Origin: Bacteroidetes bacterium 43-16
GTDB taxonomy: Bacteria > Bacteroidota > Bacteroidia > Chitinophagales > Chitinophagaceae
Length of the DNA stretch: 64,000 nt
Assembly (NCBI GenBank): GCA_001897525.1
Contig: MKTB01000019.1
Span: forward strand, 62,001-126,000
Direction of reading: 5' to 3'
The position numbers and the translations under genes are program-made. Below the pieces are notes generated by a model that searched no databases, was not told where the DNA came from, and saw only the letters and a list, made by a program, of their open reading frames with translations. Shown piece by piece: positions 39-16,038 of the stretch (position 1 is the stretch's first letter; each line of letters starts with the position of its first letter).

Positions 39-3000
39 CTATTTCCTGCCGTTTAATGCCTTGGCTATGGCTTCCAAATGCTCACCAAGCTGGCTCATCT
101 GGATCATGATCTGGCCCGTACTGTCGGCCTGCCCGATACCTGCCAGCTTATTGTTCTTCACAAAAATGGTTTTGATCGCTTCCCATCTTTCTGCTTCGGT
201 ATCAGACAGGATGCCCATAATGGATTTTACTTTTAATAAATTGGCTTCGGCATCTGAGGTTAAGGTCTGCGACTCCTGCTCGTAATGGGATAAGATCAGG
301 GTCTGTACTTCCAGGGCATTCATCAGGGGTACCAGGCGACCAACCATTCGATTCATATTCCGGTAAGAGCCCTGCATTTTAAAAGGCGGCTCTACCCGGT
401 AGGCATCTTTCATCGCGGCGCTGGCAATGTATTGCTGGTTGACCTGCACGACCACATTGCGTACGGCAATGGCATGACGGAGCACGGCAATGGCATCGTC
501 CAGCTCTTGCTTCCCGGCATTGGATTCCAGCTCGGGCAGCAAGTCCTGGCCCTGCTCTACGTATTGTACGAGTTGGTAGAAATCGGTCATGCTCTTTAGT
601 GCAATGTTTTGCAGGTAAGGGTTCTCTGCAATGGCATTTTCCAATAAGCTCAGGTTGAACAGGTGTGCGGTATTGCCCACTACATCGCCCAGGTTATAGA
701 CATCAGAACGGTTGGCGAGCATATCGGGGATCTTAAAGGCCTCCCCGCTTTCGGTATAAGGGTTACCTGCCATGACTACGCAAAAGCGCTTGCCGCGCAG
801 GTCGTAGGTCTGGCTTTCACCCTCAAAAATGCCTTCCATCTTACGTTGCCCATCTGCAAGGGAGATAAATTTCTGTAAGAACTCCGGAGAACAGTGTTGT
901 ATATCGTCTACATACAGCATGACATTATCGGCCATTTCCAAAGCCAGGTTCACCTTTTTAAGTTCTTCGCGTGCCCCGGAGGTACGGGCTTCTGCAGGAT
1001 CAATGGAAGTGATATGATGCCCGATCATTGGCCCGTTCACTTTTACAAAATGTAGTCCCATGGTCTTTGCGAGGTATTCCATCAGGGTGGTTTTACCATA
1101 GCCCGGCGGCGATACCAGTAACAGCATCCCCATCCTCGCGGTACGCTTATCATCACCGGCACTGCCGATCTGCTTGGCCAGGTTATTACCGATCAGCGGG
1201 AAATAGACTTCATTGATCAGTTTATTACGGACAAATGAACTCAGCACTTTGGGCTCGAATTCTGCTATTTTCAGTTCTTTCTGGTAGTCGGCCACGAGCC
1301 TGTTTTTCTCTTCATTGAAGGCCCTGAAGGCCGGCACGGTTTCGGTGGTGAACTGCATCAGCTTTCTTTTAAACTGATGATAATGGAGGGTATAAGCCTG
1401 CTGCACGATCACGTTATGCGTACCTTTCAGGTCTTGTACAATGAGGGTATCATCGGCCGTACTTTCTTTAAAAGTGCCTTCCGGCAAGAGGTACAGCATC
1501 ACCGCTTCGTCCACGTATTCCGGGGCGATGTCATGGGAGCCGCTTTCATAGAATGCCATCAGCCAGTTCTGCAGGATCACGAAACGCTCGTAATGGTCAA
1601 AATCTGCCTGGTCGATATCTGCTCTGAAAGCAGCTTCCTGCTTGTGTTGCTCCAGGTATTGCTCAAATGATTGTTTTAATTGTACGGCTTGCTTGCTCGC
1701 AGTAAAATAAGGATCGGTCGCCAATTCGCGGTAGATATAGAAGGCCATATCTGCCGGTGTCACCGAAGCATTCATCACCACCCTGGCCTGGTATAAAACC
1801 TCGATCTCTTTAGCGATAAAGTCAAACTGGCTGCGCTGCGGAAAGTTGTGCTGGATGGCATAAGCGGTAGCGATCAATCGTTTCAGCTTATTGCGCTCGG
1901 CATCGCTCAATTGCCACCAGAAGAACAAAGCGGCTACTCTTAATTCGGGGGCAAAGCGCAAAACGCCCAGGCGCTCTTCCAGTCCTTTCAAGGCTTGGTA
2001 GATATTGATGGCATCCACATTATGCACGCCTTTGAGATAACCGGCTCCGAAATCCTGTTCGGTTTGCTGGTTGATATAGTCTGTACCTTTAAAGTCGGGG
2101 GACAGCCTGCTCTCTTGTAAAGCCAGGAAGGCCAGGTACTCGGAACGGTAGACCTGCGTATTTTCAGACACCAGTTCCTGCTCCCAGATAGCGCGGTATT
2201 GATACAGGGCTTCTGCTTTAACGGCTTTATAAAAACTGGTCCCGATCAAATGGTAAAATAACTGGTTATCACGGCGCACCATACTCAGGCTGAGGGCTTG
2301 CTTGTTGACCAGGAATTTATGGATACCCAGGGCGATCACATTAGCCCCATCCACAAAGAGGTCGCTGCGGTCTTTCAACTGGCGCAGGGCTTCTTCCTGC
2401 GTAGTGCGCAGGATGGTCTCCATGTTTTCTGCTTTGGCCACATCACCCAGTTCCCGCAGTTCTGCAGACAGGCTGCGTACCTTATCGATCATGAGATCGG
2501 CAGCAAAGAAGGCGAAGATGTCTTCCCGGCTTTCCAGCCTCAGGGCTTTATTTTCTATATTCTTTAATACACGTAAACCGATCTGCTCCAGCGAACCTGC
2601 CCTGCGGTTGAGCTGGGCCTGCAGCATTTCTTTACGGGTATTGAAGGCTTTGATAATCTCGTCTCTTTTATCGGCTATTTTACCGATAAAGTCATCGAAG
2701 TCGGCAAAGCGGCTTTCCAGCTCTTCTACCTGTACGCTGATCTTGGTAAAGTAATCTTCACTTTTCTCCGGGGTATCGGCCAGGTCCATGTAATTGACGA
2801 GGGTCTGGTCGAGCAAGGTCATCTGGGCATAGAAAGCGCCTACGGATTCTGAAGTTTTCAGGTCCTTCAATCTTCTTGCCAGGTCGGCCTTCAGCTCATT
2901 CAGCGCAGCAAAGATCAGGGAGATCTTTTCAACGATCTTCGTGGTCTGCGTGGTATCTTCAATTTTCAGGCTGTTCAGGATATCCACCAGTAATTCCAGC

Positions 3001-4874
3001 TCCCCGGCAATGTCTTTGATCTCGGTTTCTATGGCCTGTGCTTCGATTACTTTCTCTACCGCTGCTACCTGTCCTTTTTGAGCCGCTACCCTGTTTTCAT
3101 AAGGTGCCAGAGCCTGTTCGGTCAGCAGGAAGTCAACGGTCTCTGCAGACAAAGTTGTATTGTATTCCTGTAGCCGCACTTTCAATTGTTCAATGGCCGC
3201 TTTATCTATATAGCGTACATTTTGTACCTCTATTAAAGCACCATTCATTTGCCGGAGCTGTGCCAGCAGGTGTACGAGCTGGTCCAGGCTTTCGGCTTTT
3301 ATATTTTTTATGCTCAGGATGAGCGCGGCTGCTTTTTGCTGCGCCTCTTCCAGGCTGCGGCGTGCATGTGCTCTTTGCTCCTGTACTTTAGCGAACTCGT
3401 CTATGGCCGTTCCGGCAATGCTTTTGATCTGGGAGAGTGGCTCTGAAAGCTGAAAGGTAGCTTCGTCTTTGATCCAGAAATAGGCATCGAGTATATCGGT
3501 GGTTTTCTTCTCAATATCTTCATACAGGCCTTCGTAGGAGTCTTCTTTTTGCAGCAACTGCAGCACTTCCTGTGCTTCTGACATGGCATGTACGATATCT
3601 TTATTACCGATCTTGTACAGGACATTATCTGCCATTGCTTTATTTTCCTGTAAGGCAGCGGTATAAGGGGTTTGCCAGATCTGCACCTGGTGATGCCGCA
3701 CGGCTTCATGGGAAGAACGGAAATAGATCAGTTTACCATCATTAAAAACGGTAAAGCCATTACAGATAATCGGTGTCTCTACAGCTTGCTGGATGACATT
3801 ATAGGACATCAGCACATAGGTATTGTTATACACCTCGTAGAATACATATAGCAGGTCTTCCCCATTGGGAGAGATGATGGTGCGGATAAACTGCAGATGC
3901 TCCAGCTCCGATTCAAAGATCTTATAGGCACCGGTCTGCAGGTAATAACCGTTAGAGAAGATAAGGCCCTGGTTATCGGGCAGCACAATGCCTGCCTCGA
4001 GTAAGGAAGGTATCGGTGTTACGGTCTTTGTTCTTATATTAAAGACATAGGTCCTTTCGGTCTCCTGGTAGGGTTTTATTTTTATGGCAATAATATTACC
4101 CAGGTCGGCGTAGTAGTAGTCCGCATCATCGAGCTGCTGGTCTTTATTGTCTACCGGCTCTGAGTAGATGCCTTTCCCGGTATGGGTATTGTCTTCTACT
4201 TTAAAGGTGATGTCCCCGTTAATGGCCTCAATAAAGAGTTTATCCAAAACGGATATATGTGGATGCTGTCCCAGGCGACGGTCTTCCAAAGTAGTCTTTA
4301 CCCAGCTGAAGCCATGCTGTGGCGGGTCTTTTACTTCATGTATGCTTCTGTCATCAATATAATGAAGTGCTCCGTCTTTGATGAGCCATTTGAAGGCTTT
4401 ACGATCCTCTGGGTTGCGGGAGGTCTGGAAGATCATATAGATATAATGTTCCGTTCTCCTGAATTTGGCAAAAATAGAGTCTCTGTAATATTTATAGAGG
4501 TTGGTAAAATCGGTAATGAAGCTTTCATCGGACAGGATGGTCAGCGGCTGCGCTTCAAAGGCGTTGTCTTTAAACTTATAAATACTGAATACATCACTCA
4601 GCCTGATATCTTCCCGCAGTCCGAAATGTACATTATAAGCGAAGATACATATATCATTTAAAGCCAGGATACCGCGTGCCACGCCATTGTTTTCTGTAGT
4701 GATGCGCTGGTTGGCGATCAGTTCCATGGACAATGAGGTGAACACTTCCTTACGGGCATTGTTCAGTTGCGACAAGCGACTGCTTAATTGCTGTGCCTGC
4801 TCGCGCAAGCGGTTTTGAATAATCTCGTAAGTGCCGGAATCTAATGCTATATTGTCGTTTCTTATATCGGTCAT
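39..4874 (-). CDS. Giant DUF3686-type AAA ATPase (annotated family name: DNA repair ATPase)
   Basis: A 1611-residue predicted cytoplasmic ATPase. There is no signal peptide or membrane segment. The first ~430 residues look beta-rich, residues ~430-860 are long charged helices of coiled-coil type, and a single AAA module lies near the C-terminus. Visible motifs are Walker A PPGYGKTT near residue 1255, Walker B VMLYVDDIQ near 1320, a sensor-1-like VVMAGNPY near 1370 and a candidate arginine finger in LANRSD near 1390. The layout matches the family called DNA repair ATPase (Pfam DUF3686), a name that rests on similarity rather than on a known reaction. It is the last gene of a minus-strand operon with PspA, flotillin and YqiJ-like proteins, 107 bp after the PH-like gene, so a role in membrane maintenance is at least as likely as DNA repair. 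The ATG at 4874 is the first in frame. Confidence 0.85.
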   Translation of the reverse strand: MTDIRNDNIALDSGTYEIIQNRLREQAQQLSSRLSQLNNARKEVFTSLSMELIANQRITTENNGVARGILALNDICIFAYNVHFGLREDIRLSDVFSIYKFKDNAFEAQPLTILSDESFITDFTNLYKYYRDSIFAKFRRTEHYIYMIFQTSRNPEDRKAFKWLIKDGALHYIDDRSIHEVKDPPQHGFSWVKTTLEDRRLGQHPHISVLDKLFIEAINGDITFKVEDNTHTGKGIYSEPVDNKDQQLDDADYYYADLGNIIAIKIKPYQETERTYVFNIRTKTVTPIPSLLEAGIVLPDNQGLIFSNGYYLQTGAYKIFESELEHLQFIRTIISPNGEDLLYVFYEVYNNTYVLMSYNVIQQAVETPIICNGFTVFNDGKLIYFRSSHEAVRHHQVQIWQTPYTAALQENKAMADNVLYKIGNKDIVHAMSEAQEVLQLLQKEDSYEGLYEDIEKKTTDILDAYFWIKDEATFQLSEPLSQIKSIAGTAIDEFAKVQEQRAHARRSLEEAQQKAAALILSIKNIKAESLDQLVHLLAQLRQMNGALIEVQNVRYIDKAAIEQLKVRLQEYNTTLSAETVDFLLTEQALAPYENRVAAQKGQVAAVEKVIEAQAIETEIKDIAGELELLVDILNSLKIEDTTQTTKIVEKISLIFAALNELKADLARRLKDLKTSESVGAFYAQMTLLDQTLVNYMDLADTPEKSEDYFTKISVQVEELESRFADFDDFIGKIADKRDEIIKAFNTRKEMLQAQLNRRAGSLEQIGLRVLKNIENKALRLESREDIFAFFAADLMIDKVRSLSAELRELGDVAKAENMETILRTTQEEALRQLKDRSDLFVDGANVIALGIHKFLVNKQALSLSMVRRDNQLFYHLIGTSFYKAVKAEALYQYRAIWEQELVSENTQVYRSEYLAFLALQESRLSPDFKGTDYINQQTEQDFGAGYLKGVHNVDAINIYQALKGLEERLGVLRFAPELRVAALFFWWQLSDAERNKLKRLIATAYAIQHNFPQRSQFDFIAKEIEVLYQARVVMNASVTPADMAFYIYRELATDPYFTASKQAVQLKQSFEQYLEQHKQEAAFRADIDQADFDHYERFVILQNWLMAFYESGSHDIAPEYVDEAVMLYLLPEGTFKESTADDTLIVQDLKGTHNVIVQQAYTLHYHQFKRKLMQFTTETVPAFRAFNEEKNRLVADYQKELKIAEFEPKVLSSFVRNKLINEVYFPLIGNNLAKQIGSAGDDKRTARMGMLLLVSPPGYGKTTLMEYLAKTMGLHFVKVNGPMIGHHITSIDPAEARTSGAREELKKVNLALEMADNVMLYVDDIQHCSPEFLQKFISLADGQRKMEGIFEGESQTYDLRGKRFCVVMAGNPYTESGEAFKIPDMLANRSDVYNLGDVVGNTAHLFNLSLLENAIAENPYLQNIALKSMTDFYQLVQYVEQGQDLLPELESNAGKQELDDAIAVLRHAIAVRNVVVQVNQQYIASAAMKDAYRVEPPFKMQGSYRNMNRMVGRLVPLMNALEVQTLILSHYEQESQTLTSDAEANLLKVKSIMGILSDTEAERWEAIKTIFVKNNKLAGIGQADSTGQIMIQMSQLGEHLEAIAKALNGRK

Positions 4875-4981
4875 TTTTCTAATTATTTTTTGCTCCTTTA
4901 GCTGCTTTAGCTAAGCGGAAGAGGTACTCATGAGCCTCAGCTTACAATCACAAACCAGGCATACTATTCTAAATCTTCACC

Positions 4982-5407
4982 CTATCTTTTCTTCTTATAC
5001 TTCACTTCCACTGCAGGATTCCGGCTCAAAATCATTTCAATAAATACTTGTTTTTCTTTAGGGGATATCAATATGCTGCTTCCCTTACCGTACTCGATCC
5101 TTAAACGGTCCAGGGAGATGGCTGGCGCACTGGTAGGATCGGAGGTTTCTTTGATCTTCGTGATCGTAGCGATACTGATGGGTTTATTCATCAGGAAGCC
5201 GCAATGTATCCGCAGTTCATCACCGGTAATGGTATAGTAGGTGGTCAAAAACATATGGATAATAAATACTGAAGTAAGCAAAGGGATGATGAGGACGGTC
5301 CAGCTATAAGCGCCGGTCATCATCAGCAATACCACCACTGTGGTCATGATGATCACCAGGGGAGCTAAAAGTTCTACGCCTACTTTTGATTTGAATACCT
5401 TTTTCAT
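4982..5407 (-). CDS. Small membrane protein with PH-like domain (DUF1200-like)
   Basis: 141 residues. Two hydrophobic segments (about 13-33 and 36-56) are followed by a soluble part beginning TYYTITGDELRIHCG and containing a KPISIATITKI stretch and RIEYGKGSSILISP. This is the pattern of the bacterial PH-like domain once called DUF1200, found after a membrane hairpin in YdbS/YdbT-like and YokE-like proteins. The PH-like part should face the cytoplasm and may bind partner proteins or lipids; no reaction is expected. It lies 17 bp after the exported-protein gene and 107 bp before the giant ATPase, in the same operon. Its basic tail (VKYKKKR) fits a cytoplasmic end. Family assignment is by pattern only. 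Confidence 0.75.
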   Translation of the reverse strand: MKKVFKSKVGVELLAPLVIIMTTVVVLLMMTGAYSWTVLIIPLLTSVFIIHMFLTTYYTITGDELRIHCGFLMNKPISIATITKIKETSDPTSAPAISLDRLRIEYGKGSSILISPKEKQVFIEMILSRNPAVEVKYKKKR

Positions 5408-5424
5408 ATGAATGCATTTAAAGG

Positions 5425-6000
5425 TTAAGCACTACAGTCCATGCTGACCAGGTCAAAAACGGTGAGGCACCATTTATTCCCGGTCCAGGTAAGGTAAAAT
5501 ACAACACTGGATTTGGTATCTACGATCCTGTAACTATTGTTTTCAATGGTCTTTATTGTGTTCAAAGTTTCGGTTTCAGTGTCTACCAATTCGTATTGTT
5601 TTAAAAACTTCACGATATTGCTCAAGAGCTGTGGTACGTTTTTCTGGTAGAAAAATCCCTTCCTGGTCCACTGTTCTTTATCACAATCAAAATCTACTTT
5701 TCCCGGTTTCAACTGCCTTTTTTCTGCCTGCAAGGATGCCGTATAGAAATAGGGTGATGAATAAACGCTGTCTTTTTCCAGTGTCGCAGTGCGGTAAAAT
5801 ATATCCGGCACGCCCATGCGATATACTACAAACAGCTCGATACCGGGATGAATGTATTTTTGATTGATGGTCGCCAGGTCATCTTTTTCCAGGCATTGCA
5901 TGATCTCTGCAACGGCCCTTTCAAATTGCACTTGCTTGCTTTGAGCAGATACAGTAAGGCTGTACAGCATCACAATAAAAAAGACGAACAGTTTTTGCAT
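5425..6000 (-). CDS. Exported protein of unknown function
   Basis: 191 residues with a clear signal peptide (about residues 1-19, ending VSA before QSKQ), so it is predicted to be periplasmic or exported. I do not recognise the mature part. It is a mixed alpha/beta sequence with a run of aromatic residues near the C-terminus (VVFYLTWTGNKWCLTVFDLV), as seen in small ligand-binding or SnoaL/NTF2-like folds, but no diagnostic motif is visible. Its start overlaps the end of the preceding membrane-protein gene by 31 bp, so translation may be coupled. It lies between flotillin and the PH-like gene of the envelope-stress-like operon; no ordinary member of PspA clusters known to me matches it. Confidence 0.75.
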   Translation of the reverse strand: MQKLFVFFIVMLYSLTVSAQSKQVQFERAVAEIMQCLEKDDLATINQKYIHPGIELFVVYRMGVPDIFYRTATLEKDSVYSSPYFYTASLQAEKRQLKPGKVDFDCDKEQWTRKGFFYQKNVPQLLSNIVKFLKQYELVDTETETLNTIKTIENNSYRIVDTKSSVVFYLTWTGNKWCLTVFDLVSMDCSA

Positions 6001-6473
6001 AATTCCCCGGATTTATAGCTTTCACTTGCAGAACGAATGCCGTTCATTAAACTTAACTCTTGTATATAATATACCCAATTAAAGAAAATAACAATACCTG
6101 GAAACAGGCAAAGGCTTACCCAATAGGGAATTTCCGTTTTATTAAACAGTTCATGATAGATGATAACAAGATTCATACAAATACAAAATATGCTGATCAA
6201 AGCCGCATCAAATCTAAGCCTGCTTTCTAAAACAAAAAACCATTTCTTGTCTAGCAACTTCTTATAACCATAAATTGAAATAGGTTGATGCCCGTAATTA
6301 TTTATGGATCCCGTTCCAAATGAATTATAGCTTCTAAATCTAAAATCATTAACACCTAAGCAATCTGTTTCGAAAGAAAATTTTTCAAAATGTTGCAGGA
6401 AATGATCAATATCACTTTCAGATTCAAAGGCAACAAGTTCTTTTATTTTAAAAGGCCGCTTCATCATTTTCAT
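5970..6473 (-). CDS. Two-span membrane protein of unknown function
   Basis: 167 residues. The N-terminal ~80 residues are soluble and charged (FESESDIDHFLQHFEKF). Two hydrophobic segments follow at roughly 88-107 (AALISIFCICMNLVIIY) and 117-138 (YWVSLCLFPGIVIFFNWVYYI). I do not recognise the family. The stretch is visibly more AT-rich than its neighbours and uses AT-ending codons more freely, which suggests a later addition to the operon. It overlaps the next gene by 31 bp and follows the flotillin gene by 40 bp. The start at 6473 is the first of several close ATGs (M, K, M, M). It might be a newly evolved gene, but the two well-formed membrane spans and position argue that it is real. Confidence 0.65.
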   Translation of the reverse strand: MKMMKRPFKIKELVAFESESDIDHFLQHFEKFSFETDCLGVNDFRFRSYNSFGTGSINNYGHQPISIYGYKKLLDKKWFFVLESRLRFDAALISIFCICMNLVIIYHELFNKTEIPYWVSLCLFPGIVIFFNWVYYIQELSLMNGIRSASESYKSGELCKNCSSFLL

Positions 6474-6513
6474 ACGTGTAGGTTAGCCAATACTTCTAAT
6501 TACTTACTCAAAT

Positions 6514-8562
6514 TTACAACTGATTCAGCTTCTTATTGGATATTCCTAAACTATTCACCAGGTTGGCCAGCTTACTAATGCCCGGTTGATCATCTGCACT
6601 GGCATTGCTTTGCAATTTCAGCAGCAGGCTGGCAATAGTCAGGTTTTTTAAATCATTGGTAGATACATTATATTTCTGTGCGAAGCCGGCAATACGCTCC
6701 ATAAGGTCGCCGGAACCGCTACCCTCACCCAGCAAGGCTGTTTTGATCTGTGTCGCGTTCTCGCTTTCGTTGATCAGGCGATCAAAGCCTTTGGCATTGG
6801 AGATCTGGTTAACGATATTCTGGAAGAACATGGTCTCTCCGCCCACGATATCGATCTTAGCCGTTTTGAGGGCGCTACCCAATACATCTGCCTGGGCAAA
6901 TGCGATGTCTTTCTGTACATTCACCTGTGCCAATGCGATATCCAGGTCTTTGCGTACGAGTATCTTGAACTCTTCATGCTCTTTACCTACGGCATCCAGT
7001 TTCTTCATCGCTTCGGCTTTCTCTTCGATGCCTGCTGCCTCTGCCAGGGCTTTCTCTTTCACTACTTCTGCCTCTGCAAGACCTTCTTTACGCTTCGCTT
7101 CTGCAATTTTCTCAATAACATTGGCATCTACGGTACCTTGTCTTTCTGCGGCTTCGGCTTTAGCGATCATTACTTCTGCTTCAGACAGACCCAAAGTCGC
7201 ATCTTCACGTGCCTGAGCTTCTGCCAGGATCTTACGTGCCTCTGCCTGCTTAGTGGCCGCTTCTTTACGTGCTTCTGCATCAATAACTAATTGTTTTGCT
7301 TTCTCTTCTGCAGCCTTTTTATCTGCTTCTGCTGCTTTCACGGTGAAGATCAGCTTTTCTTCTGCTTCCTGGCTGGCATGGGTAATGCCTACGGTTTTCT
7401 CACGTTCTACAGTTCTGAAGGCTTCAATGTCTTTCATGCCTTGTTGCTCTTCTACCACACCTTTTTCCAGCTTCACACGCTCACGGATCACATCCTGGAT
7501 ATTTTTCTTTTCTACCTCTATGCTTTTTTCTTTCTCGATCTGGGCAAGGGTCACTATTTTCTCACGTTCTGTTTGCTCCAGGGCACGGTCTTTTTCCACA
7601 CGCTCTGTTTCCACCGCATCTGTACGTTGTTTATTCTTCTCTGCGATAATGATCTGGCGCAGCTTATTCTCTTCCTGTACAGCAAGGGTCTCGTCGGTTT
7701 GAATCCTTACGGTCTCTGATTTCAATCTTTCTTCTTCTCTCACCTTCTGGATCTCTGCGGTCTCACGGGCTTTGATATTATCAATTTCACGTTTTTGCTT
7801 TTCTTCTTTTTCTGCCATCTGGCGGTCGAGTTCCAGGATGGCTTCACGCGCTTCTACATTTTGCTTCTTGATCACTTTTTCTTCTTCTCTGCGGATGAGG
7901 TTGGCGTTGATGTTCTCCCGGGCTGTCAGTTCGGTGATCTTCTTGATGCCTTGTGCATCCAGGATATTCTGCGGGCTCAGGAATTTAATTTCTGTTTGCT
8001 CCAGGTAGTCAATGGCGCAGTCATCGAGGATGTAGCCGTTCAGGTCGGTACCGATCACATTCAGGATCTCGTCCCGGAACTCGCGGCGCGCTTCATACAA
8101 TTCGATGAAATCAAATTTTTTACCTACTGTTTTTAAGGCTTCCGAGAACTTGGCCTCAAAGAGGTTGCGTAATGTCTCCACATCAGAAGCACGCTCGGTG
8201 CCTATGGTCTGGGCCACGTTCAATACATCGTCCACACTTTTATTTACCCGTACAAAGAAGGCTACTTTAATATCGGCCCTTATATTGTCTTTACAGATGA
8301 GGCCATCGTACTCCATCCTGTCGATCTGCAGCTTTTTTACAGAGATGTCCATGATCTCCATTTTATGCAGCACCGGGATTACGTACATTCCTTTATTGAA
8401 GGCTACTTTTCCGCCCCCCACACCGGTACGCACGATGGCCTTACCCTGGGGTATTTTTTTATAGAATGTCGCAAAGGCGAAAAGAATAATGAGTAAGAAA
8501 AAGATCACTCCTCCGATAACGAGGAAAGTAACACTGCCAAAAGCGTCTAATAATGCTCCCAT
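6514..8562 (-). CDS. Flotillin-like SPFH/Band-7 membrane scaffold protein (YqiK-like)
   Basis: 682 residues. An N-terminal membrane anchor (about 10-34) is followed by an SPFH/Band-7 domain (about 35-210) and then a very long Glu/Lys/Ala-rich coiled coil (about 215-560) with the repeated AEA-type pattern typical of flotillins. The C-terminal ~100 residues are less regular. Flotillins oligomerise into cages or rafts on the inner membrane and organise membrane proteins. E. coli YqiK (about 550 residues) is the nearest well-known relative by layout, and as with yqiJ-yqiK the upstream neighbour here is a YqiJ-like OB-fold membrane protein, 41 bp away. The extra length is in the coiled coil. The ATG at 8562 puts the anchor at the very N-terminus as expected. 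Confidence 0.93.
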   Translation of the reverse strand: MGALLDAFGSVTFLVIGGVIFFLLIILFAFATFYKKIPQGKAIVRTGVGGGKVAFNKGMYVIPVLHKMEIMDISVKKLQIDRMEYDGLICKDNIRADIKVAFFVRVNKSVDDVLNVAQTIGTERASDVETLRNLFEAKFSEALKTVGKKFDFIELYEARREFRDEILNVIGTDLNGYILDDCAIDYLEQTEIKFLSPQNILDAQGIKKITELTARENINANLIRREEEKVIKKQNVEAREAILELDRQMAEKEEKQKREIDNIKARETAEIQKVREEERLKSETVRIQTDETLAVQEENKLRQIIIAEKNKQRTDAVETERVEKDRALEQTEREKIVTLAQIEKEKSIEVEKKNIQDVIRERVKLEKGVVEEQQGMKDIEAFRTVEREKTVGITHASQEAEEKLIFTVKAAEADKKAAEEKAKQLVIDAEARKEAATKQAEARKILAEAQAREDATLGLSEAEVMIAKAEAAERQGTVDANVIEKIAEAKRKEGLAEAEVVKEKALAEAAGIEEKAEAMKKLDAVGKEHEEFKILVRKDLDIALAQVNVQKDIAFAQADVLGSALKTAKIDIVGGETMFFQNIVNQISNAKGFDRLINESENATQIKTALLGEGSGSGDLMERIAGFAQKYNVSTNDLKNLTIASLLLKLQSNASADDQPGISKLANLVNSLGISNKKLNQL

Positions 8563-8603
8563 AGATTGATTGATTGTTTAAAGGTTATTTATGTTTTGTT
8601 TGT

Positions 8604-9275
8604 TTAAATATTGTTGAGGTTTACTTCTGCCTGAACGATGTAGATATTGCTTCCTTTCACTTCGTCTACAATAGTCACATCCTGGTTGTAACCGATGGTC
8701 CTACCATCTTTGCTTTGTACATTGATGCGGATGAGATCGGTATGTATCCTGAGTTCAGCATTGCCGATCTTTGTCCCGGAAATATCCGAGCGCATGAGGG
8801 CGGTACGCCCCAGGAGGTCATGTGCCTCTTCTCCGTTATAGCCCATTTGCCGATAGATTTTTACAAGTGGCCGTGTAGCCAGCCGGGTTAAGAAAAAGGT
8901 GATGATAAAGACAGGGATCAGTAATAAGGCTGATTTCCAGCCCCAGTTAAAGGTGTTGAATGCCACGGAGCTGACCAGGGTACCGATCCAGGCGATAAAT
9001 TTAAAGACACTCAGCACGACCATAAAAGGTACTTTACCTACATTTATATATTGCATGGCTTTTTCGAAGCCGGAAAGCTCTGCTCCCCCATCTACATCAA
9101 GTCCTGCATCTACGTCCAGGTCTACATCAGTATCGAAATCAACCCCAAAGTCCATATGCCCCAGGAAGTCGCCTGCGAGAAAGGTGAATACCCAGTACAG
9201 TGCCGACAAACCGGCCAGGATGGTCATGATGGCATTAGCCAAAGGGTGAAATAATAAGTCCAGTATGCCTGTCAT
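8604..9275 (-). CDS. YqiJ/NfeD-like membrane protein with OB-fold and aspartate-rich loop
   Basis: 223 residues. Membrane segments are predicted at about 12-35, 82-105 and 110-130, followed by a C-terminal OB-fold-like domain (about 140-220: LLGRTALMRSDISGTKIGNAEL, then an expected beta-rich end). This is the YqiJ/NfeD type that partners flotillins. Between the first and second membrane spans lies an Asp-rich segment (about residues 40-66) with alternating hydrophobic and Asp residues (DFDTDVDLDVDAGLDVDGG), which could bind divalent cations; that is inference. The gene is 41 bp upstream of flotillin and 74 bp downstream of pspA. The 74-bp spacer consists largely of heptanucleotide repeats. 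Confidence 0.85.
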   Translation of the reverse strand: MTGILDLLFHPLANAIMTILAGLSALYWVFTFLAGDFLGHMDFGVDFDTDVDLDVDAGLDVDGGAELSGFEKAMQYINVGKVPFMVVLSVFKFIAWIGTLVSSVAFNTFNWGWKSALLLIPVFIITFFLTRLATRPLVKIYRQMGYNGEEAHDLLGRTALMRSDISGTKIGNAELRIHTDLIRINVQSKDGRTIGYNQDVTIVDEVKGSNIYIVQAEVNLNNI

Positions 9276-9289
9276 AAGATGAATGATTG

Positions 9290-9345
9290 GTTATGGGTTA
9301 TGGGTGATAGGTGATGGTTAATGGTTAATTGTTTATTGTTAATTG
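9290..9345. repeat. Eight degenerate heptanucleotide repeats
   Basis: The spacer between pspA and the yqiJ-like gene contains eight consecutive 7-bp units: GTTATGG twice, GTGATAG, GTGATGG, TTAATGG, TTAATTG, TTTATTG and TTAATTG. Similar heptads occur at 18824-18924 and 52055-52128. No coding potential is seen. Confidence 0.85.
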
Positions 9346-9349
9346 ACCA

Positions 9350-10057
9350 TTAAGATTTATTCATACCTAATTGCTTTTTAATGGCTTCCAGGTCGCTGTC
9401 AATGGTGCCGGTTTTATCGTTCAATACTTTTTCCAGGTCTTCTTTAATATTAGATTTTTCATTGGCAATCTCGCCATAGGCCTTTGCCAGGGCTTCGCGG
9501 TCTTCTACTTTTTCTTTCATCCGCTCCAGCATGGATATGGTATCATTGGCATCAAGATGGGCCATCTGCTTGTTGACCTGCTGTGTGGCTTTACTCACTT
9601 TTGCTCTCGCTTTCAGGGTTTTCAATTCTTTTTCCCACTTGGACAGGTTCTCTTTAATGACTTCGATGTTCTTCAACATTTCGGCTGCAGATTGCTGATG
9701 CGCTACAGCCTGCCGTTCGAGATCTTCCGACTCTTCGGTGTACTGCATTTTCAGGCGCAGGGCTTCTTTCGCCAGGGTCTCAGCCTTTTCCAGTTCCAAA
9801 GACCCTTCCTGTGCTTTTTCCATCACCAATACTGCTTTCTGGCCGTAGGTTGCCGCTTCTTTAAGGCAGGCTTCTTTTTCATTCTGCGTGCGTATCGACA
9901 GGGCCTTCACACTGGCATAAGCTTCAGTAGCTTCATTTAGATCTTCCCGCAATTCACGCAGTCCCTGCTCGGTCATTTTAACCGGGTCTTCCATTTTTTC
10001 TACAGCGGCATGTATTTCTGCCTGACCAATCCTGAAAATTCTCTTGAAAATGTTCAT
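9350..10057 (-). CDS. PspA/IM30 family envelope-stress protein (YjfJ-like)
   Basis: 235 residues from the chosen start. The sequence starts MNIFKRIFRIGQAEIHAAVEKMEDP, matching the amphipathic N-terminal helix of PspA/IM30 proteins, and continues as an almost fully helical coiled coil with conserved-type stretches (MEDPVKMTEQ, LKARAKVSKA). PspA proteins are ESCRT-III relatives that polymerise on stressed inner membranes to limit leakage. An in-frame ATG lies 13 codons upstream inside the preceding gene; I prefer 10057 because it gives the canonical N-terminus and leaves 4 bp after the preceding stop codon. The DUF2170 gene directly before it mirrors the E. coli yjfI-yjfJ pair. Confidence 0.93.
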   Translation of the reverse strand: MNIFKRIFRIGQAEIHAAVEKMEDPVKMTEQGLRELREDLNEATEAYASVKALSIRTQNEKEACLKEAATYGQKAVLVMEKAQEGSLELEKAETLAKEALRLKMQYTEESEDLERQAVAHQQSAAEMLKNIEVIKENLSKWEKELKTLKARAKVSKATQQVNKQMAHLDANDTISMLERMKEKVEDREALAKAYGEIANEKSNIKEDLEKVLNDKTGTIDSDLEAIKKQLGMNKS

Positions 10058-10061
10058 AGCT

Positions 10062-10454
10062 TTAATATTTAGAATATTCGATAATATTTGGCGCAAACTC
10101 GTTCAGCAATAGGCCGACCGCGTTTATCGCTCCTTCAAATTCATTAAAATCAAGTGCTTCAATCTGCATGGTGTATCGGAAAAGTACTTTTGTACCTTCT
10201 TCGTTCAGCACAAAAGCACCGTGCAGGGTATCCCTGTTTTTTTGTAATAGTGCTTTGAACATATGTACATTATCTTCTTTAAAGGAGAAGAGGTACATCT
10301 CCATGATCAGTATGGGCGGTGCTACACCCAGGATCAGGTTATGGATACCATCCTGCTCATTTTCAAGTACCAATATCCCATCTGCCTCATTCCTGTACTT
10401 TATCTCACATTGCATCTGTTTTGCAAAGCTTTCTATTTTGTCTATATACATCAT
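10062..10454 (-). CDS. DUF2170 (YjfI-like) protein, first gene of the PspA/flotillin operon
   Basis: 130 residues, soluble, alpha/beta, with no membrane segment. The pattern (LVLENEQDGIHNLILGV, then FSFKEDNVHMFKALLQKNR, AFVLNEEGTKVLFRYTMQIE and a final helix) is that of DUF2170, the YjfI family that accompanies YjfJ-type PspA proteins. No biochemical role is established; a chaperone-like or regulatory role toward PspA is inferred from constant linkage. The first ATG at 10454 is preceded by AGGA at good spacing. Its promoter lies in the 106-bp divergent spacer shared with the XRE regulator. Confidence 0.88.
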   Translation of the reverse strand: MMYIDKIESFAKQMQCEIKYRNEADGILVLENEQDGIHNLILGVAPPILIMEMYLFSFKEDNVHMFKALLQKNRDTLHGAFVLNEEGTKVLFRYTMQIEALDFNEFEGAINAVGLLLNEFAPNIIEYSKY

Positions 10455-10480
10455 AAGCTTCCTGTTTTGTGCTGTTCCTA

Positions 10481-10512
10481 CAAATTTAGTAATTATTTTG
10501 AATTATTGCAAA
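10481..10512 (-). promoter_or_regulatory. Promoter of the DUF2170-pspA-flotillin operon
   Basis: On the minus strand a -33 box TTTG (10512-10509) and a -7 box TAAATTTG (10488-10481) are separated by 20 bp, an exact match to the Bacteroidota primary sigma consensus TTTG-N19-21-TAnnTTTG. The predicted start of transcription is near 10477, giving a leader of about 22 nt. Confidence 0.75.
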
Positions 10513-10528
10513 AATATTTAGCAATAAT
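10502..10528. promoter_or_regulatory. Operator-like inverted repeat in the divergent spacer
   Basis: Perfect 8-bp arms ATTATTGC and GCAATAAT are separated by 11 bp. The site covers the -33 box of the operon promoter and sits just upstream of the regulator's own -7 box, so binding by the divergent XRE protein could control both directions. The assignment of the binder is inference. Confidence 0.6.
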
Positions 10529-10545
10529 GATAATTATTTTTACAT

Positions 10546-10553
10546 TACCTTTG
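10546..10553 (+). promoter_or_regulatory. -7 box of the XRE regulator gene
   Basis: TACCTTTG matches TAnnTTTG. It ends 7 bp before the ATG at 10561, so the transcript would have almost no leader. No good TTTG -33 box is visible at the usual distance, where the inverted repeat lies instead. Confidence 0.55.
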
Positions 10554-10560
10554 TAGAGTT

Positions 10561-11238
10561 ATGACAAAAGTGGGCAGTAATATAAAGAAAATCAGGGCTA
10601 CAAAAGGCTTATCTCAACAAGCTTTTGCTGATATATTTGAATTAACCCGGGGAAATATATCTTCTTATGAAGAAAACAGGGCAGATCCTAAAATAGAAAT
10701 TATCGTAAAGATTGCCAATTATTTTAGCATTCCGCTGGAAGCACTGATTACGCAGCACCTGACGGTCAACCAGATATTGAACTTTAAAGGGGATAAGTTG
10801 ATGGAGGAAGAGAAGACACTTGATGCCTTACAACTGAAAGAGGTGCCTTATATCAATGATAATATTTATGCGCAATGCCGGCATGGCCATATCAGCTTCA
10901 GCGACCATCATCTTTTTCCAAAGCTGGTACTACCTTCTACCGGCAATATAAATTTACTGGCGCTTACGTTTAATTCTAATATCCCTCATCCCAGTGCATT
11001 ACCCAGGTTTGGCGAGCATGATATCCTGGTATTTGAAGCGCTTACGGAGACCAATTTTCATTTATGCGAGCATACTCCGGGATTATATATCGGGGAAAAA
11101 GAATTGATGCTGGGTTATTATCAATCTGAAAATGAGTCTATGAAACTGGTACTTAATGCATTAAAAGAGCATGTATTTGATATTAAATCGGGCCAGCAAT
11201 TCTGGAAATTATATGCCAGCTACCAACATTTACCCTGA
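10561..11238 (+). CDS. XRE-family transcriptional regulator, divergent from the PspA/flotillin operon
   Basis: 225 residues. Residues ~5-62 form a helix-turn-helix of the XRE/Cro-CI type (IRATKGLSQQAFADIFELTR, then NISSYEENRADP). The C-terminal ~120 residues (from about 105) resemble the fold of LexA/CI S24 domains in the arrangement of hydrophobic strands and a GEHDILVFE segment (compare DGDxVLVD), but the usual catalytic Ser-Met pair is not evident, so self-cleavage is not claimed. Position and the shared inverted repeat suggest it controls the eight-gene operon and itself. The ATG at 10561 follows a -7 box by only 7 bp. A strong hairpin terminator follows. Confidence 0.88.
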   Translation: MTKVGSNIKKIRATKGLSQQAFADIFELTRGNISSYEENRADPKIEIIVKIANYFSIPLEALITQHLTVNQILNFKGDKLMEEEKTLDALQLKEVPYINDNIYAQCRHGHISFSDHHLFPKLVLPSTGNINLLALTFNSNIPHPSALPRFGEHDILVFEALTETNFHLCEHTPGLYIGEKELMLGYYQSENESMKLVLNALKEHVFDIKSGQQFWKLYASYQHLP

Positions 11239-11255
11239 GCAATGCCACCTGTAAT

Positions 11256-11295
11256 AAAAGAAGTGCAACTTAAAAGTTTAAGTTGCACTTCTTTT
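11256..11295. terminator. Bidirectional hairpin terminator
   Basis: A perfect 19-bp inverted repeat (arms 11256-11274 and 11277-11295) has A-rich and T-rich ends, so it can terminate both the XRE gene and the convergent exported-protein gene. The formal 2-nt gap means the real loop takes a few of the inner A-T pairs. Confidence 0.9.
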
Positions 11296-11311
11296 TGTTA
11301 TAAAGTGTACA

Positions 11312-12400
11312 TCAGAGTAATTTGAAGTAGAAGTTCACTTTTCCACCGAAATAACCTACATGATTGTCCTTAGTAAAACGGAAATTGCTGGCAAAATCAA
11401 ATGTGAAACTAACGGTTCTCCCTACCGGGATAGTTATGCCCAGGTAGGCAGCGGAGCGTGTAGTATCATTAACCGGAACAACAAAACCATTACGGAGTTT
11501 AAAAGTTCTAATATGTGCAGCACCGATACGTACCGCTACCTTTTGAGCGGTCATTTGCTCTCCGGATAAGAAGCCGAATTCTAAACCATGAAACAGGTAT
11601 AGACCCCTGTTACCATTAAATCCTGCATAACCTACAGATCCTCCATAGCCTATGTAATTAGTTGTTCCAACGACACCCCCGTGACCGGCATTAAGATAAA
11701 GTCCTCCATCCAAAGCCGGGTAAGCGGTACCGTTCATAGCCACTCCTATACCCACACCACCAAAGAGCATAACCCTTGATCGTAAATTCTGCCAGCCCAA
11801 GCCTTTTTCCCTTATTGTATTAAGGCTATCAAAGCTCTGCCTCCATTCTGGACCTAAATCAAGACGCGATAAGTCTTTCAGGGTAAACACATATAGCACC
11901 GGGTAGAGACTACCGCCCTTACTCTTTGGTACATTATATGTATAATCTGCGACAATAATCGAATCCATATTATGTTTTACACTAAGCACTTCATTATTGA
12001 TCTCTACAAAATCTGTAGTCTTGGGCGCTCTCTTTTTAAAACGGAATAAAGGTTCGGGAGCATCAGGACTTAAAGCGATCGTTATCACATACTGACTCAA
12101 AGGGTCTGTAATAGAATCTTTTAACAGGCTCAATCCTTTCTGAACTGCTTGAAACACCCTGTCATGATTACTTTTTTCCCAATCACTCCAATAACTCATA
12201 TAGACGGTCATATTACCATCTGGCAAAAGGCTATTTTCCAGCTTCTTAGAACGGTCTGCTGTGGAAAAGTCAAAATAATCGAATTGCTTATGCACCTTAG
12301 GGTCCGGTTTATAAGTAATTTCATTACAGCATTGTGCTAACAATAACTGATGGATGAATAGTTGCAACAGTATAATGAGTATACTGGTTTTTTTTATCAT
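11312..12400 (-). CDS. Exported protein, probable outer-membrane barrel C-terminus, of the sigma/anti-sigma operon
   Basis: 362 residues with a signal peptide (about 1-22, ending LLLAQ before CCNE). The N-terminal half is soluble and unrecognised. From about residue 205 on there are alternating Gly/aromatic strands (GGVGIGVAMNG, GGLYLNAGHGG, GLYLFHGLEFGF, YLGITIPVGRTVSF) ending in an aromatic NFYFKLL, which suggests a small outer-membrane beta-barrel with a C-terminal Phe-type signal. Its ATG overlaps the anti-sigma gene stop (ATGA, 4 bp), so the two are translated together. It may be the envelope sensor or target of the sigma system; that is inference. I do not recognise the family. Confidence 0.75.
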   Translation of the reverse strand: MIKKTSILIILLQLFIHQLLLAQCCNEITYKPDPKVHKQFDYFDFSTADRSKKLENSLLPDGNMTVYMSYWSDWEKSNHDRVFQAVQKGLSLLKDSITDPLSQYVITIALSPDAPEPLFRFKKRAPKTTDFVEINNEVLSVKHNMDSIIVADYTYNVPKSKGGSLYPVLYVFTLKDLSRLDLGPEWRQSFDSLNTIREKGLGWQNLRSRVMLFGGVGIGVAMNGTAYPALDGGLYLNAGHGGVVGTTNYIGYGGSVGYAGFNGNRGLYLFHGLEFGFLSGEQMTAQKVAVRIGAAHIRTFKLRNGFVVPVNDTTRSAAYLGITIPVGRTVSFTFDFASNFRFTKDNHVGYFGGKVNFYFKLL

Positions 12401-13506
12401 TTATAATTTTTTAATACCGAATTAAGATTCATTGAACTTTTTTCTCTGTGCTCCTTATTTTCACCGAATGCACGTCCATATGCAGAGTTCCCCCTGGCGT
12501 GCGCTTCTGAAGGGCGAATATCTGAGATGTGCACGACTCTTTTAACGGGAGCTGCTGTGGCAATAGTTTCTTCAATTTCTTTTTCGGGTGCTAAAAGGCC
12601 ATTATCTCTGACCTCTGTAGTTTTAGTATGGTTAGTTTTAAGTGTTGGTTCTGATTTAGCAAGTACCTTTTCTGACTTTAAAGGTGTCACAGTATTAAAT
12701 CTGCTGGCAACAGGTTCTATTAATTTACGGCTTTGTGGTGCTGCAACCGGTATTTTATCTTTTAAAGGGGCTTTAATGGAATTCCTGGCAATATTATTAT
12801 GCTGTTCCCGATTTACCGGCGCTTCTGTATCCTGTTCAGGTAAAGATATTTCTTCCCGGGGCATAATTTGCGGCCCTACAGGCTGCTGCACAGATTCTGA
12901 AACCGGAGCTTCTGCAATAGTTTTGTGCAGGGACTCTGCAGGCTTGCTCAAGAAAAACCAGGCACCTGCGATACCTATTAAAAGGGCAGCAGCATGACTC
13001 CATCTGAGTTTAAAGAATACTTTACGCTTTTCTTTGGAAGCCGGGTTTGTGGCAAGGATACCTGAAGATACCTGCTCCCAGATCCTTACTTTTGCCTCAG
13101 GCAAGTCCTCCAGGACAGCTAAAGCCGGATCTTGCATTTTTTGCTGCCATTCCAGTTCAAAATTTTCTTTTTGTGCAAATACGGATGCAGCAATACGTTC
13201 TTTGCCGGTTTCATTAAGGAATACGTTTCTTATATTATCAGGTTCTTCAATCTTTTCGCGCCAGTTTTTTTCAAATTTTGCCCGTGGTATCTGTAATTTA
13301 TCCCATATTTCCTGCTTTGCTCCTTGTTCTAAAAATCCTTCCCATCCGGGGATTTCATCTGCTTTCTTTTGCCATGCTTTTTCAAATTTTTTTTTGGAAG
13401 ACTGTATCTTTCCCCACATATGCGCTTTGACCTCTTCTTTCAAAAAGTCTTTTTGTGCATCTGAATCATTCATTTTTTCCCGCCAATGGTCTTCGAAATT
13501 TTTCAT
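12397..13506 (-). CDS. Single-span anti-sigma-like protein with four 37-residue N-terminal repeats
   Basis: 369 residues. The cytoplasmic N-terminus has four tandem repeats starting at F4, F41, F78 and F116 with the frame FExxWxxK, a mid-repeat FL and a later W (W31, W68, W143). One membrane span follows at about 171-187 (AAALLIGIAGAWFFL), then a long Pro/Glu/Lys-rich periplasmic part without obvious domains. The gene begins 6 bp after the ECF sigma stop. Membrane anti-sigma factors with this topology hold the sigma factor with their cytoplasmic part; the repeat region is therefore the candidate sigma-binding domain. It does not look like a zinc-binding ZAS domain or a FecR N-terminus. Function is inferred from position and topology. 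Confidence 0.8.
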   Translation of the reverse strand: MKNFEDHWREKMNDSDAQKDFLKEEVKAHMWGKIQSSKKKFEKAWQKKADEIPGWEGFLEQGAKQEIWDKLQIPRAKFEKNWREKIEEPDNIRNVFLNETGKERIAASVFAQKENFELEWQQKMQDPALAVLEDLPEAKVRIWEQVSSGILATNPASKEKRKVFFKLRWSHAAALLIGIAGAWFFLSKPAESLHKTIAEAPVSESVQQPVGPQIMPREEISLPEQDTEAPVNREQHNNIARNSIKAPLKDKIPVAAPQSRKLIEPVASRFNTVTPLKSEKVLAKSEPTLKTNHTKTTEVRDNGLLAPEKEIEETIATAAPVKRVVHISDIRPSEAHARGNSAYGRAFGENKEHREKSSMNLNSVLKNYK

Positions 13507-13512
13507 GGCTTT

Positions 13513-14052
13513 TTATTTTTTTTGCTTCAAAATATACTCTTGCAAGAATTTGCGTGCTTTAAATAGCTGAGAACGTGACGTGACCTCCGAAACCCCTAAA
13601 TGAGCAGATATTTCTGCATGGCTCATATCTTCAAAAACATATAGATTGAATACAGTTCTGTAGCCGATAGGCATTGTATGTATCACTTTCATGATTTCCC
13701 TCACACTCATGTTGGAAAGGGCCTGCTCCTGCTCTGCGCCAAACTGGACCGGTGTTTCTCCATCTATCGACACAATGTCCATCTGTTTACGCTTCCTGAT
13801 CTTCATTAATGCCTCATTCACTGCAATTCGCTTCATCCAGTGCCAAAGACTCTTATCTCCTCTCCATTCAAAAGTATGAATATTCCCGAATATCTTCAGG
13901 AATGCCTCTGTTGCAGCATCTTCGGCCTCCATGCGTTCTCCCAAATACCGGAACGTTGTAGCATACAAGACATCAGCATATTTTTCATATAAAATATGCT
14001 GCGCGCTGCTTTGTCCTTGCTTGCAATTTTCTACCAGTAATTTTTCTTCCAT
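13513..14052 (-). CDS. ECF-type RNA polymerase sigma factor
   Basis: 179 residues. Region 2 covers about residues 20-88 (LYEKYADVLYATTFRYLG, EDAATEAFLKIF, then WHWMKRIAVNEALMKIRKRK) and region 4 about 115-170 with the helix-turn-helix MSHAEISAHLGVSEVTSRSQ. This is a standard ECF sigma (sigma-70 r2/r4) that recruits RNA polymerase to a small regulon. It is the first gene of a three-gene operon with the repeat-bearing anti-sigma-like protein 6 bp downstream. No close match to TAnnTTTG precedes it, so it may drive its own promoter. Confidence 0.95.
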   Translation of the reverse strand: MEEKLLVENCKQGQSSAQHILYEKYADVLYATTFRYLGERMEAEDAATEAFLKIFGNIHTFEWRGDKSLWHWMKRIAVNEALMKIRKRKQMDIVSIDGETPVQFGAEQEQALSNMSVREIMKVIHTMPIGYRTVFNLYVFEDMSHAEISAHLGVSEVTSRSQLFKARKFLQEYILKQKK

Positions 14053-14156
14053 CCTTGTTTGGCCAGCGCTTTATTTATACAAAGGCAAAATTCAGGCTAA
14101 CTAACTTATATAATGCCTGAACATTATCATATGTTGCCCCTGGAAATTAAAATTAT

Positions 14157-14190
14157 GAAAAAAAGCTACAAAATATAAAATATTGTAGCT
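14157..14190 (-). terminator. Terminator of the acyl-CoA carboxylase gene
   Basis: Read on the minus strand, arms AGCTACAA (14190-14183) and TTGTAGCT (14171-14164) are followed by a run of T residues (14163-14157), about 35 bp after the stop codon. Confidence 0.75.
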
Positions 14191-14222
14191 GTAAATGTTT
14201 AATTATAATCTCTTTGTCTATC

Positions 14223-15851: not shown

Positions 15852-15974
15852 ATAAGTATCCAGTAAAGGTTTAAAGTAACATTAAAGGGAAATACATGTT
15901 GAGTATTTCAAGCGACTAAGATAGTATATTTTGGCTAATTGAGTCAGGGAGTGCCCTAATTGTTAGCACAAATA

Positions 15975-16020
15975 TTAAAGCCTCATTCATACGGCTAAAA
16001 AACCGCTGAATAAGGCCTTG
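15975..16020 (-). terminator. Probable terminator of the first secreted protease gene
   Basis: Downstream of the protease stop, the minus strand shows an imperfect stem, AAGGCCTTATTCA paired with TGAATGAGGCTTT, around a T-rich loop. Pairing is broken by one or two mismatches and the T run is short, so it is weaker than the other hairpins in this window. Confidence 0.45.
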
Positions 16021-16038
16021 ATATTGAATTAGTAAAAA

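Follow-up and report, generated by a model that had tools for sequence, protein, structure and literature searches.

A DUF3686 AAA+ ATPase with a DNA-repair label is associated with flotillin and YqiJ in a conserved operon of Bacteroidetes bacterium 43-16

A giant AAA+ ATPase that carries a DNA-repair annotation lies among genes for membrane proteins in Bacteroidetes bacterium 43-16 (Chitinophagaceae). The locus stands at one end of the 64,000-nucleotide stretch of contig MKTB01000019.1 analyzed here (the window), where the gene for this 1611-residue DUF3686 protein shares an operon with genes for a flotillin, a YqiJ-like protein, and PspA. Which of these neighbors does the ATPase serve, and does its name describe it? 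An earlier note on this DNA had proposed a membrane-associated remodelling motor for a PspA-flotillin scaffold, with three small genes of the operon as adaptors. Here, we report that flotillin and YqiJ, and not mainly DNA-repair genes, accompany the ATPase. The operon is real, conserved, and of a published kind (Ravi et al., 2024; PMC11237479). The ATPase-specific block in the C-terminal part of the flotillin is the new, testable part of this work.

The Bacteroidota sample comprised 395 genomes, and 14 control genomes, including Escherichia coli, were searched alongside it. Besides the window, 100 ATPase loci were compared: nine from the Bacteroidota sample, 80 from a genome-contig collection, and 11 of the 12 ATPase-bearing records of a plasmid collection, a second Proteus record being left out. 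The 80 contig loci are the best 80 of at least 536 confirmed relatives, and close relatives are over-represented among them. Six of the 12 "plasmid" records are chromosome-sized (1.7-11.9 Mb). The profiles used for gene finding were iterated on the same loci that were then counted, and neighbor clusters were named by eye from the 25 largest. The YqiJ_N profile (PF21001) was rejected as a co-occurrence marker; it occurred in 13 of the 395 genomes and missed the YqiJ of nine of the ten ATPase genomes. Its matches provided the ATPase-less flotillins used for comparison. Among 148 Desulfobacterota genomes, DUF3686 was found in one, the center genome itself, and no frequency is derived from that set.

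DUF3686 was present in 10 of the 395 Bacteroidota genomes. The order helix-turn-helix (HTH) regulator-CesT-PspA-YqiJ-flotillin-ATPase was kept in all nine of the others (9/9), and this recurrence shows that the arrangement is not due to chance. Among the 86 loci whose upstream sequence reached 2.5 kb or more, flotillin lay within 2 kb of the ATPase in 84; it was upstream on the same strand in 83 of them (within 200 bp in 58) and divergent in one (L070). The two flotillin-less loci (L041, L076) belong to genomes with a close flotillin elsewhere. YqiJ and flotillin occurred together in 79 of the 83 loci with at least 3.4 kb upstream. Where at least 6 kb was available (n = 82), 42 loci had PspA, 41 had CesT, and 43 had the HTH gene; the set of five partners was complete in 41. 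The commonest non-core neighbor cluster was seen in 12 of 89 loci, and an SSB-like cluster, recognized by eye, in four of 89, outside the operon. The 134 intercalated or downstream open reading frames (ORFs) were led by DUF3592 (five members), the commonest Pfam family; DUF559, GIY-YIG (nuclease-like), and a weak dUTPase_2 had two members each, and no family was recognized as repair core among the 25 of 78 Pfam families listed for these ORFs. The survey called for by the earlier note thus favors membrane over DNA repair, with flotillin in 84 of 86 loci, and the DUF3686 genes of the surveyed loci do not lie mostly beside DNA-repair genes. Flotillin rather than PspA is favored as the near-obligate partner of the ATPase, and a membrane reading with it.

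CesT and PspA behave as an optional module. The earlier note had made PspA part of the scaffold served by the ATPase; the 42 of 82 loci and the search of whole genomes do not bear out a place for PspA in the core. Of the 34 ATPase genomes without adjacent CesT-PspA, 16 had a PspA over the cut-off elsewhere, five had a weak match only, and 13 had none (E ≤ 0.001). Some of the 34 are incomplete metagenome-assembled genomes (MAGs); the 13 include genomes not titled as MAGs, from Dysgonomonas, Chryseobacterium (two), Rhodopirellula, and Acidaminobacter. Two of the five Chryseobacterium loci lacked CesT-PspA yet kept HTH, YqiJ, flotillin, and ATPase. Strong CesT_Tir_1 matches (E < 1e-37) were found in 25 genomes; 15 of these had no DUF3686, and PspA stood beside CesT in 15 of 15. 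Three arrangements of PspA were seen: 5' with CesT (Bacteroidota), 5' with DUF2170 (pQBR103), and immediately behind the ATPase gene in two MAGs that are planctomycetes by title (Phycisphaerae, Anaerohalosphaeraceae). In these two, a gap of 27-31 bp separates the ATPase from the downstream PspA (L100 4766-5449, L066 6790-7479), which reaches only 9-22 bits against the PspA profile of Bacteroidota. By eye, CesT-PspA of four Bacteroidota loci without DUF3686 (L102, L107, L113, L114) precedes what appears to be the spermidine-synthase group of Ravi et al. Plasmid pQBR103 (L117, NC_009444.1) carries consecutive genes at 4043-17247 for YjfI, PspA, rhomboid, DUF2491, DUF350, DUF1190, glutathionylspermidine synthase, YqiJ-like, SPFH, and ATPase proteins. 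This run consists of homologues of E. coli yjfIJKLMC and yqiJK in the E. coli order, plus the rhomboid gene and the ATPase.

Flotillins adjacent to the ATPase have a median length of 692 residues (n = 87), and ATPase-linked flotillins of at least 640 residues score at least 669 bits with the flotillin profile. Ten flotillins of YqiJ-flotillin pairs without an adjacent ATPase, nine from Bacteroidota genomes without DUF3686 and one from E. coli, are 553-616 residues long, and that profile gives them 216-324 bits. A profile of the block, built on residues 515-600 of 38 flotillins, matched exactly the 10 DUF3686 genomes and none of the 385 others in the Bacteroidota sample. The plasmid collection (72,556 records) contained 314 records with a related flotillin, and the 12 best were the 12 ATPase-bearing ones; in two tblastn searches, the block was detected in 11 of these 12 and nowhere else in the collection, the 302 other flotillin-bearing records included. 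Alignment occupancy was rejected as a test of the block: it was 0.00 at residues 541-560 in a small alignment, yet a large alignment was filled there in all ten unlinked flotillins. Because the two alignments disagreed, the claim is based on the profile and tblastn searches. Neither the block nor the C-terminal half of the flotillin as a whole had a significant Pfam match; residues 1-38 are transmembrane-like. The block co-occurs with the ATPase and may be the site where it docks. As to the plasmid records with a related flotillin, 260 of the 314 are typed as conjugative and 229 are from Escherichia. Among the listed records, those lacking the ATPase have a match that ends near residue 439-463.

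The ATPase was modelled in two halves with AlphaFold, from alignments of 65 rows each (mean predicted local distance difference test scores of 87.4 for the N-half and 86.3 for the C-half). Pfam assigned DUF3686 (E = 1.3e-165), DUF7902, and AAA to the protein. The Foldseek matches of the N-half were mostly beta-propeller proteins; for the AAA+ domain of the C-half, RuvB came first, followed by Hsp104/Clp, MCM, and MoxR-type proteins. K1261, D1323, D1324, N1371, R1389, and R1505 were each invariant in 96 of 96 sequences, and we take them to be the Walker A lysine, the Walker B aspartate pair, the sensor-1 asparagine, the arginine finger, and the sensor-2 arginine. In the C-half model, the strands of a beta-hairpin (585-590, 593-598) precede the sensor-1 strand at 604-609; a beta-hairpin before sensor 1 argues against a classic, Vps4-type AAA. 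No transmembrane-like span was found in the ATPase, and no MIT domain or protease family was matched in Pfam. RuvB_N stayed below its Pfam cut-off and covered 46 residues, and the matches did not include a RuvB C-terminal domain. With its propeller, long helices, and AAA+ domain, the modelled protein fits the beta-propeller/coiled-coil-fused AAA+ of the operon class of Ravi et al. The DNA-repair label of the protein probably goes back to nothing more than a weak resemblance to RuvB near the P-loop. The Gimesia ATPase (L061 9917-19879) is an ORF of 3320 residues, the last 1658 of which had no Pfam match at E ≤ 0.01.

On balance, we consider it probable that the operon encodes a flotillin machine, to which CesT-PspA is an optional addition. 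As published SPFH-NfeD complexes suggest, YqiJ and flotillin would build an SPFH cage that is bound to the membrane and opens toward no other side than the cytoplasmic one. The soluble ATPase would be recruited to the cage through flotillin residues 515-600. Its beta-propeller and helical arm would bind the target, and the single AAA+ ring would remodel either the cage itself or the membrane proteins that collect there. Since no protease domain was found, the ATPase would pull or rearrange its target, not degrade it. CesT-PspA may couple the machine to membrane patching under envelope stress, and in Bacteroidota the set would be controlled by the divergent, repressor-like HTH protein at GCTAA-N5-TTTGC-like palindromes. 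A wider version of this proposal is offered more tentatively. It holds that a dedicated flotillin subfamily of several phyla uses the block as the cap onto which a giant AAA+ motor with a beta-propeller docks, that the whole is a cytosolic, protease-free SPFH-AAA+ remodeller, and that PspA, as a module for membrane patching, was plugged in on no fewer than two occasions, perhaps on three.

Several points weigh against the flotillin machine. The ATPase-flotillin interaction and the ATPase activity are predictions from sequence, models, and co-occurrence. The Vibrio campbellii record has the ATPase, and the block was undetected in it by tblastn. Instead of being a contact site, the block may mark a subfamily of flotillins that was passed on together with the ATPase. 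The Foldseek matches of the AAA+ domain are domain-level (TM score to the target about 0.34 for the top ones), and the nearest solved relatives by sequence are p97 and RuvB (E about 1e-4), with p97 ranked above RuvB. A Walker B motif with DD rather than DE may mean a slow switch and not a motor, as in DnaA. In Pseudomonas aeruginosa, deletion of paFlo3, the flotillin of the bac operon discussed below, lowers biofilm by only about 20% (PMC13086221), and an insertional mutant of PA3728, the probable ATPase, was used as a control in a study of growth and showed nothing remarkable (PMC12599236).

Could the ATPase serve PspA in the first place? PspA is a relative of ESCRT-III. In an ESCRT-like system centered on it, the ATPase would disassemble or remodel PspA polymers as Vps4 does ESCRT-III, and flotillin would only position the ATPase. 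In kind, this is the view of the earlier note, and it comes close to that of Ravi et al. (PMC11237479), who also draw the ESCRT-III analogy for PspA. The presence of PspA in 42 of 82 loci and in three arrangements speaks for such a system, as does the finding that the PspA of the operon is the sole PspA match in the genome of Bacteroidetes bacterium 43-16; the PspA encoded elsewhere in 16 of the 34 genomes without adjacent CesT-PspA could still serve. We nevertheless hold it to be unlikely, given the 13 of 34 genomes with no PspA and the two Chryseobacterium loci without CesT-PspA. The combination of a PspA-type polymer and an AAA+ ATPase resembles ESCRT-III/Vps4; here, however, the MIT domain is absent, the hairpin before sensor 1 speaks against a Vps4-type AAA, the AAA+ fold has RuvB as its first Foldseek match, and PspA is often missing.

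It is still less probable that the genes form a laterally moving cassette, such as a defence or stress island, and travel together without making one complex. The distribution is indeed patchy (10 of 395 Bacteroidota genomes, absent from the sole congener sampled), and the genes also occur on records of plasmid size from several phyla. However, the fixed order over several phyla and the exact pairing of block and ATPase suggest functional selection and not transfer alone, and PADLOC gave only weak matches (best E = 0.0018, at the ATPase P-loop), and a search of 50,697 phage records found none; a defence system is unsupported on these grounds. The view that the annotation is right, and that an ATPase of DNA repair or of the nucleoid only happens to sit in one operon with membrane genes, is very improbable and was rejected. 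In its favor are the Pfam and NCBI names, the partial RuvB similarity with RuvB as best Foldseek match, the SSB-like gene of four loci, the DUF559, GIY-YIG, and dUTPase_2 ORFs, and, ahead of the run on pQBR103, UvrD-like and methyltransferase genes. These are outweighed by the short, sub-threshold RuvB_N match without a RuvB C-terminal domain and by the neighborhoods: 84 of 86 loci have flotillin no more than 2 kb away, and no non-core cluster exceeds 12 of 89.

How much of this was known? In the portions of their paper cited here, Ravi et al. (2024; PMC11237479) already describe the operon class of CesT/Tir-PspA, band-7/flotillin, AAA+, and YqiJ, propose ATP-dependent membrane remodelling for PspA-AAA+ associations, and include in section 19 shorter operons without CesT-PspA. 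The present operon shares with that class the CesT/Tir-PspA dyad, the Band_7 flotillin with an N-terminal transmembrane segment, the propeller AAA+, and the YqiJ with three transmembrane segments; the bPH, exported, and two-span genes are extra here. Section 19 makes no mention of a divergent HTH gene, of an operator, or of an ATPase-specific flotillin block. The term DUF3686 was absent from that paper and from the literature searched. The idea of a membrane-remodelling ATPase in the earlier note holds in that gene neighborhoods favor membrane over DNA repair; it is not new, and its PspA part does not belong to the core.

The P. aeruginosa bacABCDEF operon, as given in portions of the papers cited here (PMC10948618, PMC2587700), likewise unites DUF2170, PspA, NfeD, flotillin, and ATPase; it differs in having DUF2170 in place of CesT_Tir_1 and in its proposed sigma-54 promoter. 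BacA is the DUF2170 protein and BacB is PspA-like, and in strain PA14 the short NfeD and the SPFH protein are PA14_16160 and PA14_16180 (PMC13086221). bacE encodes an ATPase annotated for DNA repair (PMC10948618, PMC8855297, PMC13086221), and BacE is a DUF3686 protein by annotation text only. Reverse transcription PCR products were obtained across every bacA-bacF junction, and BacB to BacF were up 6.1- to 13.5-fold in a bacA mutant (PMC10948618). BacB rises with osmotic shock (PMC10948618, PMC2587700). The word "ATPase" was absent from the main text of the two bac-operon papers searched for it. PA3728, called an ATPase, is among the genes repeatedly mutated in cystic fibrosis isolates (PMC8190622, PMC4199492); it is next by number to the PA3729 flotillin, and gene length alone could explain the repeated mutation.

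In E. coli, yjfI-yjfJ and yqiJ-yqiK lie at separate loci, as the earlier note had stated and as was verified in MG1655. YjfI-YjfJ and YqiJ-YqiK, of the yjfIJKLMC and yqiJK operons, are cognate pairs of the proteins studied here. E. coli differs in that no ATPase stands beside either operon, and DUF3686 was found in none of the 14 control genomes; in the small alignment, nothing in YqiK (553 residues) corresponded to the block. FtsH-HflK/C pairs an AAA+ enzyme with an SPFH cage. FtsH is membrane-anchored and has an M41 protease domain, and HflK/C face the periplasm, whereas the ATPase described here has neither a transmembrane-like span nor a protease family match.

The divergent HTH gene and a conserved operator belong to the operon unit. 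The pattern GCWAA-N3-7-TTWGC occurred at 36 sites in 32 of 42 HTH-CesT intergenic regions, each extended by 60 bases at both ends. In 200 dinucleotide shuffles, the mean was 0.8 sites and the maximum 3; the pattern was derived from the same regions in which it was then counted. Its density was about 50 times that of the remaining locus sequence. Ten regions lacked it, including all three from Hymenobacter (L073, L074, L123). The operator of the window lies upstream of a TAAATTTG box, which we take to resemble the Bacteroidetes -7 element. In the C-terminal part of the HTH regulator, a weak S24 match was obtained in one relative only. The conservation of the site suggests that the HTH protein may bind there and repress the operon.

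A recount of ORFs confirmed the eight minus-strand genes at 39-10454 (Table 1), and the order, strand, and all seven intergenic gaps of the earlier note (4, 74, 41, 40, -31, 17, and 107 bp from the first gene to the ATPase) are correct. Its assignment of the first gene to DUF2170 named the wrong family. This protein matches CesT_Tir_1 (PF22550) at E = 1.3e-45 and had no match to DUF2170 (PF09938) at E ≤ 0.1; the YjfI homologue of pQBR103, used as a positive control, matches DUF2170 at 2.6e-44. Both families are placed in the CesT/Tir superfamily in a part of PMC11237479. The next gene, 4 bp away, matches PspA_IM30 (PF04012) at E = 1.9e-39. The YqiJ-like protein scores 26.6 bits with YqiJ_N (cut-off 23). 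The whole flotillin had no Pfam match at E ≤ 0.1, and its first 300 residues alone match Band_7 (1.2e-10). PspB, PspC, and PspF of the classical psp operon were not found among the nine proteins scanned, and no search was made in the rest of the genome. Further small genes on the same strand begin 46 bp beyond the ATPase, past the window edge; the first is DUF3592-like (E = 0.0015, below the Pfam cut-off). A possible extracytoplasmic function sigma factor, judged by eye only, lies near the operon at 13513-14052 of the window.

Table 1. Features of the DUF3686 locus in the window of Bacteroidetes bacterium 43-16.
Feature	Position	Strand	Basis and remarks
ATPase, 1611 aa, DUF3686/DUF7902/AAA+	39..4874	-	Pfam, structure models; beta-propeller ~50-405, helical arm, AAA+ ~1205-1520
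bPH_4 membrane protein (PH-like)	4982..5407	-	Pfam; two hydrophobic spans; local accessory
Exported protein, 191 aa, orphan, local accessory	5425..6000	-	N-terminal signal-peptide-like span
Two-span membrane protein, 167 aa, near-orphan	5970..6473	-	GC 31.5%
Flotillin	6514..8562	-	N-terminal transmembrane segment, Band_7/SPFH, long helical (coiled-coil-like) part
Flotillin C-terminal block, residues 515-600 (86 residues), candidate docking site	6763..7020	-	Co-occurrence with ATPase
YqiJ/NfeD-like protein	8604..9275	-	YqiJ_N; three hydrophobic spans
PspA/IM30 (YjfJ-like)	9350..10057	-	PspA_IM30; ATG start internal to ORF listed to 10096
CesT_Tir_1 chaperone-like protein	10062..10454	-	Pfam PF22550
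Operator-like palindrome GCAAAAATATTTAGC between divergent genes	10508..10522	.	Pattern conserved across HTH-CesT intergenic regions
Divergent HTH (XRE-type) regulator	10561..11238	+	Conserved beside CesT-PspA; C-terminal part perhaps LexA/CI-like

We take the bPH, exported, and two-span genes, which the earlier note had read as adaptors, to be local additions and not part of a conserved core; one of the products is predicted to be exported, and the related loci hold no homologue. With phmmer (E ≤ 10), none was found in a set of 8847 ORFs drawn from 104 further loci and the window's own downstream stretch, and BLASTP (E ≤ 1) found none among 10393 ORFs. The exported and two-span proteins had no credible Pfam match. 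Across 98 other genomes of the order, the exported protein had no match and the two-span protein had one weak match with four internal stops. The two-span gene is probably a later insertion; its guanine-cytosine (GC) content is 31.5%, compared with 45.4% for the operon. In other loci, the space between flotillin and ATPase is occupied by different inserts, IS200-type transposases and DUF559 genes among them. Aquimarina (L032) has small genes of its own in this gap, one with a weak match to DUF6141 (E = 0.00065, below the cut-off), presumably a PH-like family, and one DUF3592-like; analogous additions may therefore recur. Small DUF3592-like membrane proteins stand beside the ATPase in four Bacteroidota loci (L011 13579-13992, L012 4744-5166, L073 15002-15436, L032 9066-9425); only one of the four is over the Pfam cut-off, and they are a possible accessory partner. 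Directly 3' of the ATPase, Vibrio (L121 16864-17568) and Photobacterium (L125 16839-17540) encode related HKD-motif proteins, which accord with a remark on phospholipase D by Ravi et al.; PLDc_2 was matched by two unspecified members of the 134 ORFs.

The block offers a concrete way into the role of bacterial flotillins and into how a motor may be attached to them. In two large collections, this flotillin subfamily was never seen without its AAA+ motor, and the P. aeruginosa biofilm operon is now connected to the same motor. The misleading name "DNA repair ATPase" is corrected; if the docked-machine reading is true, a flotillin-remodelling machine had been hidden under that name.

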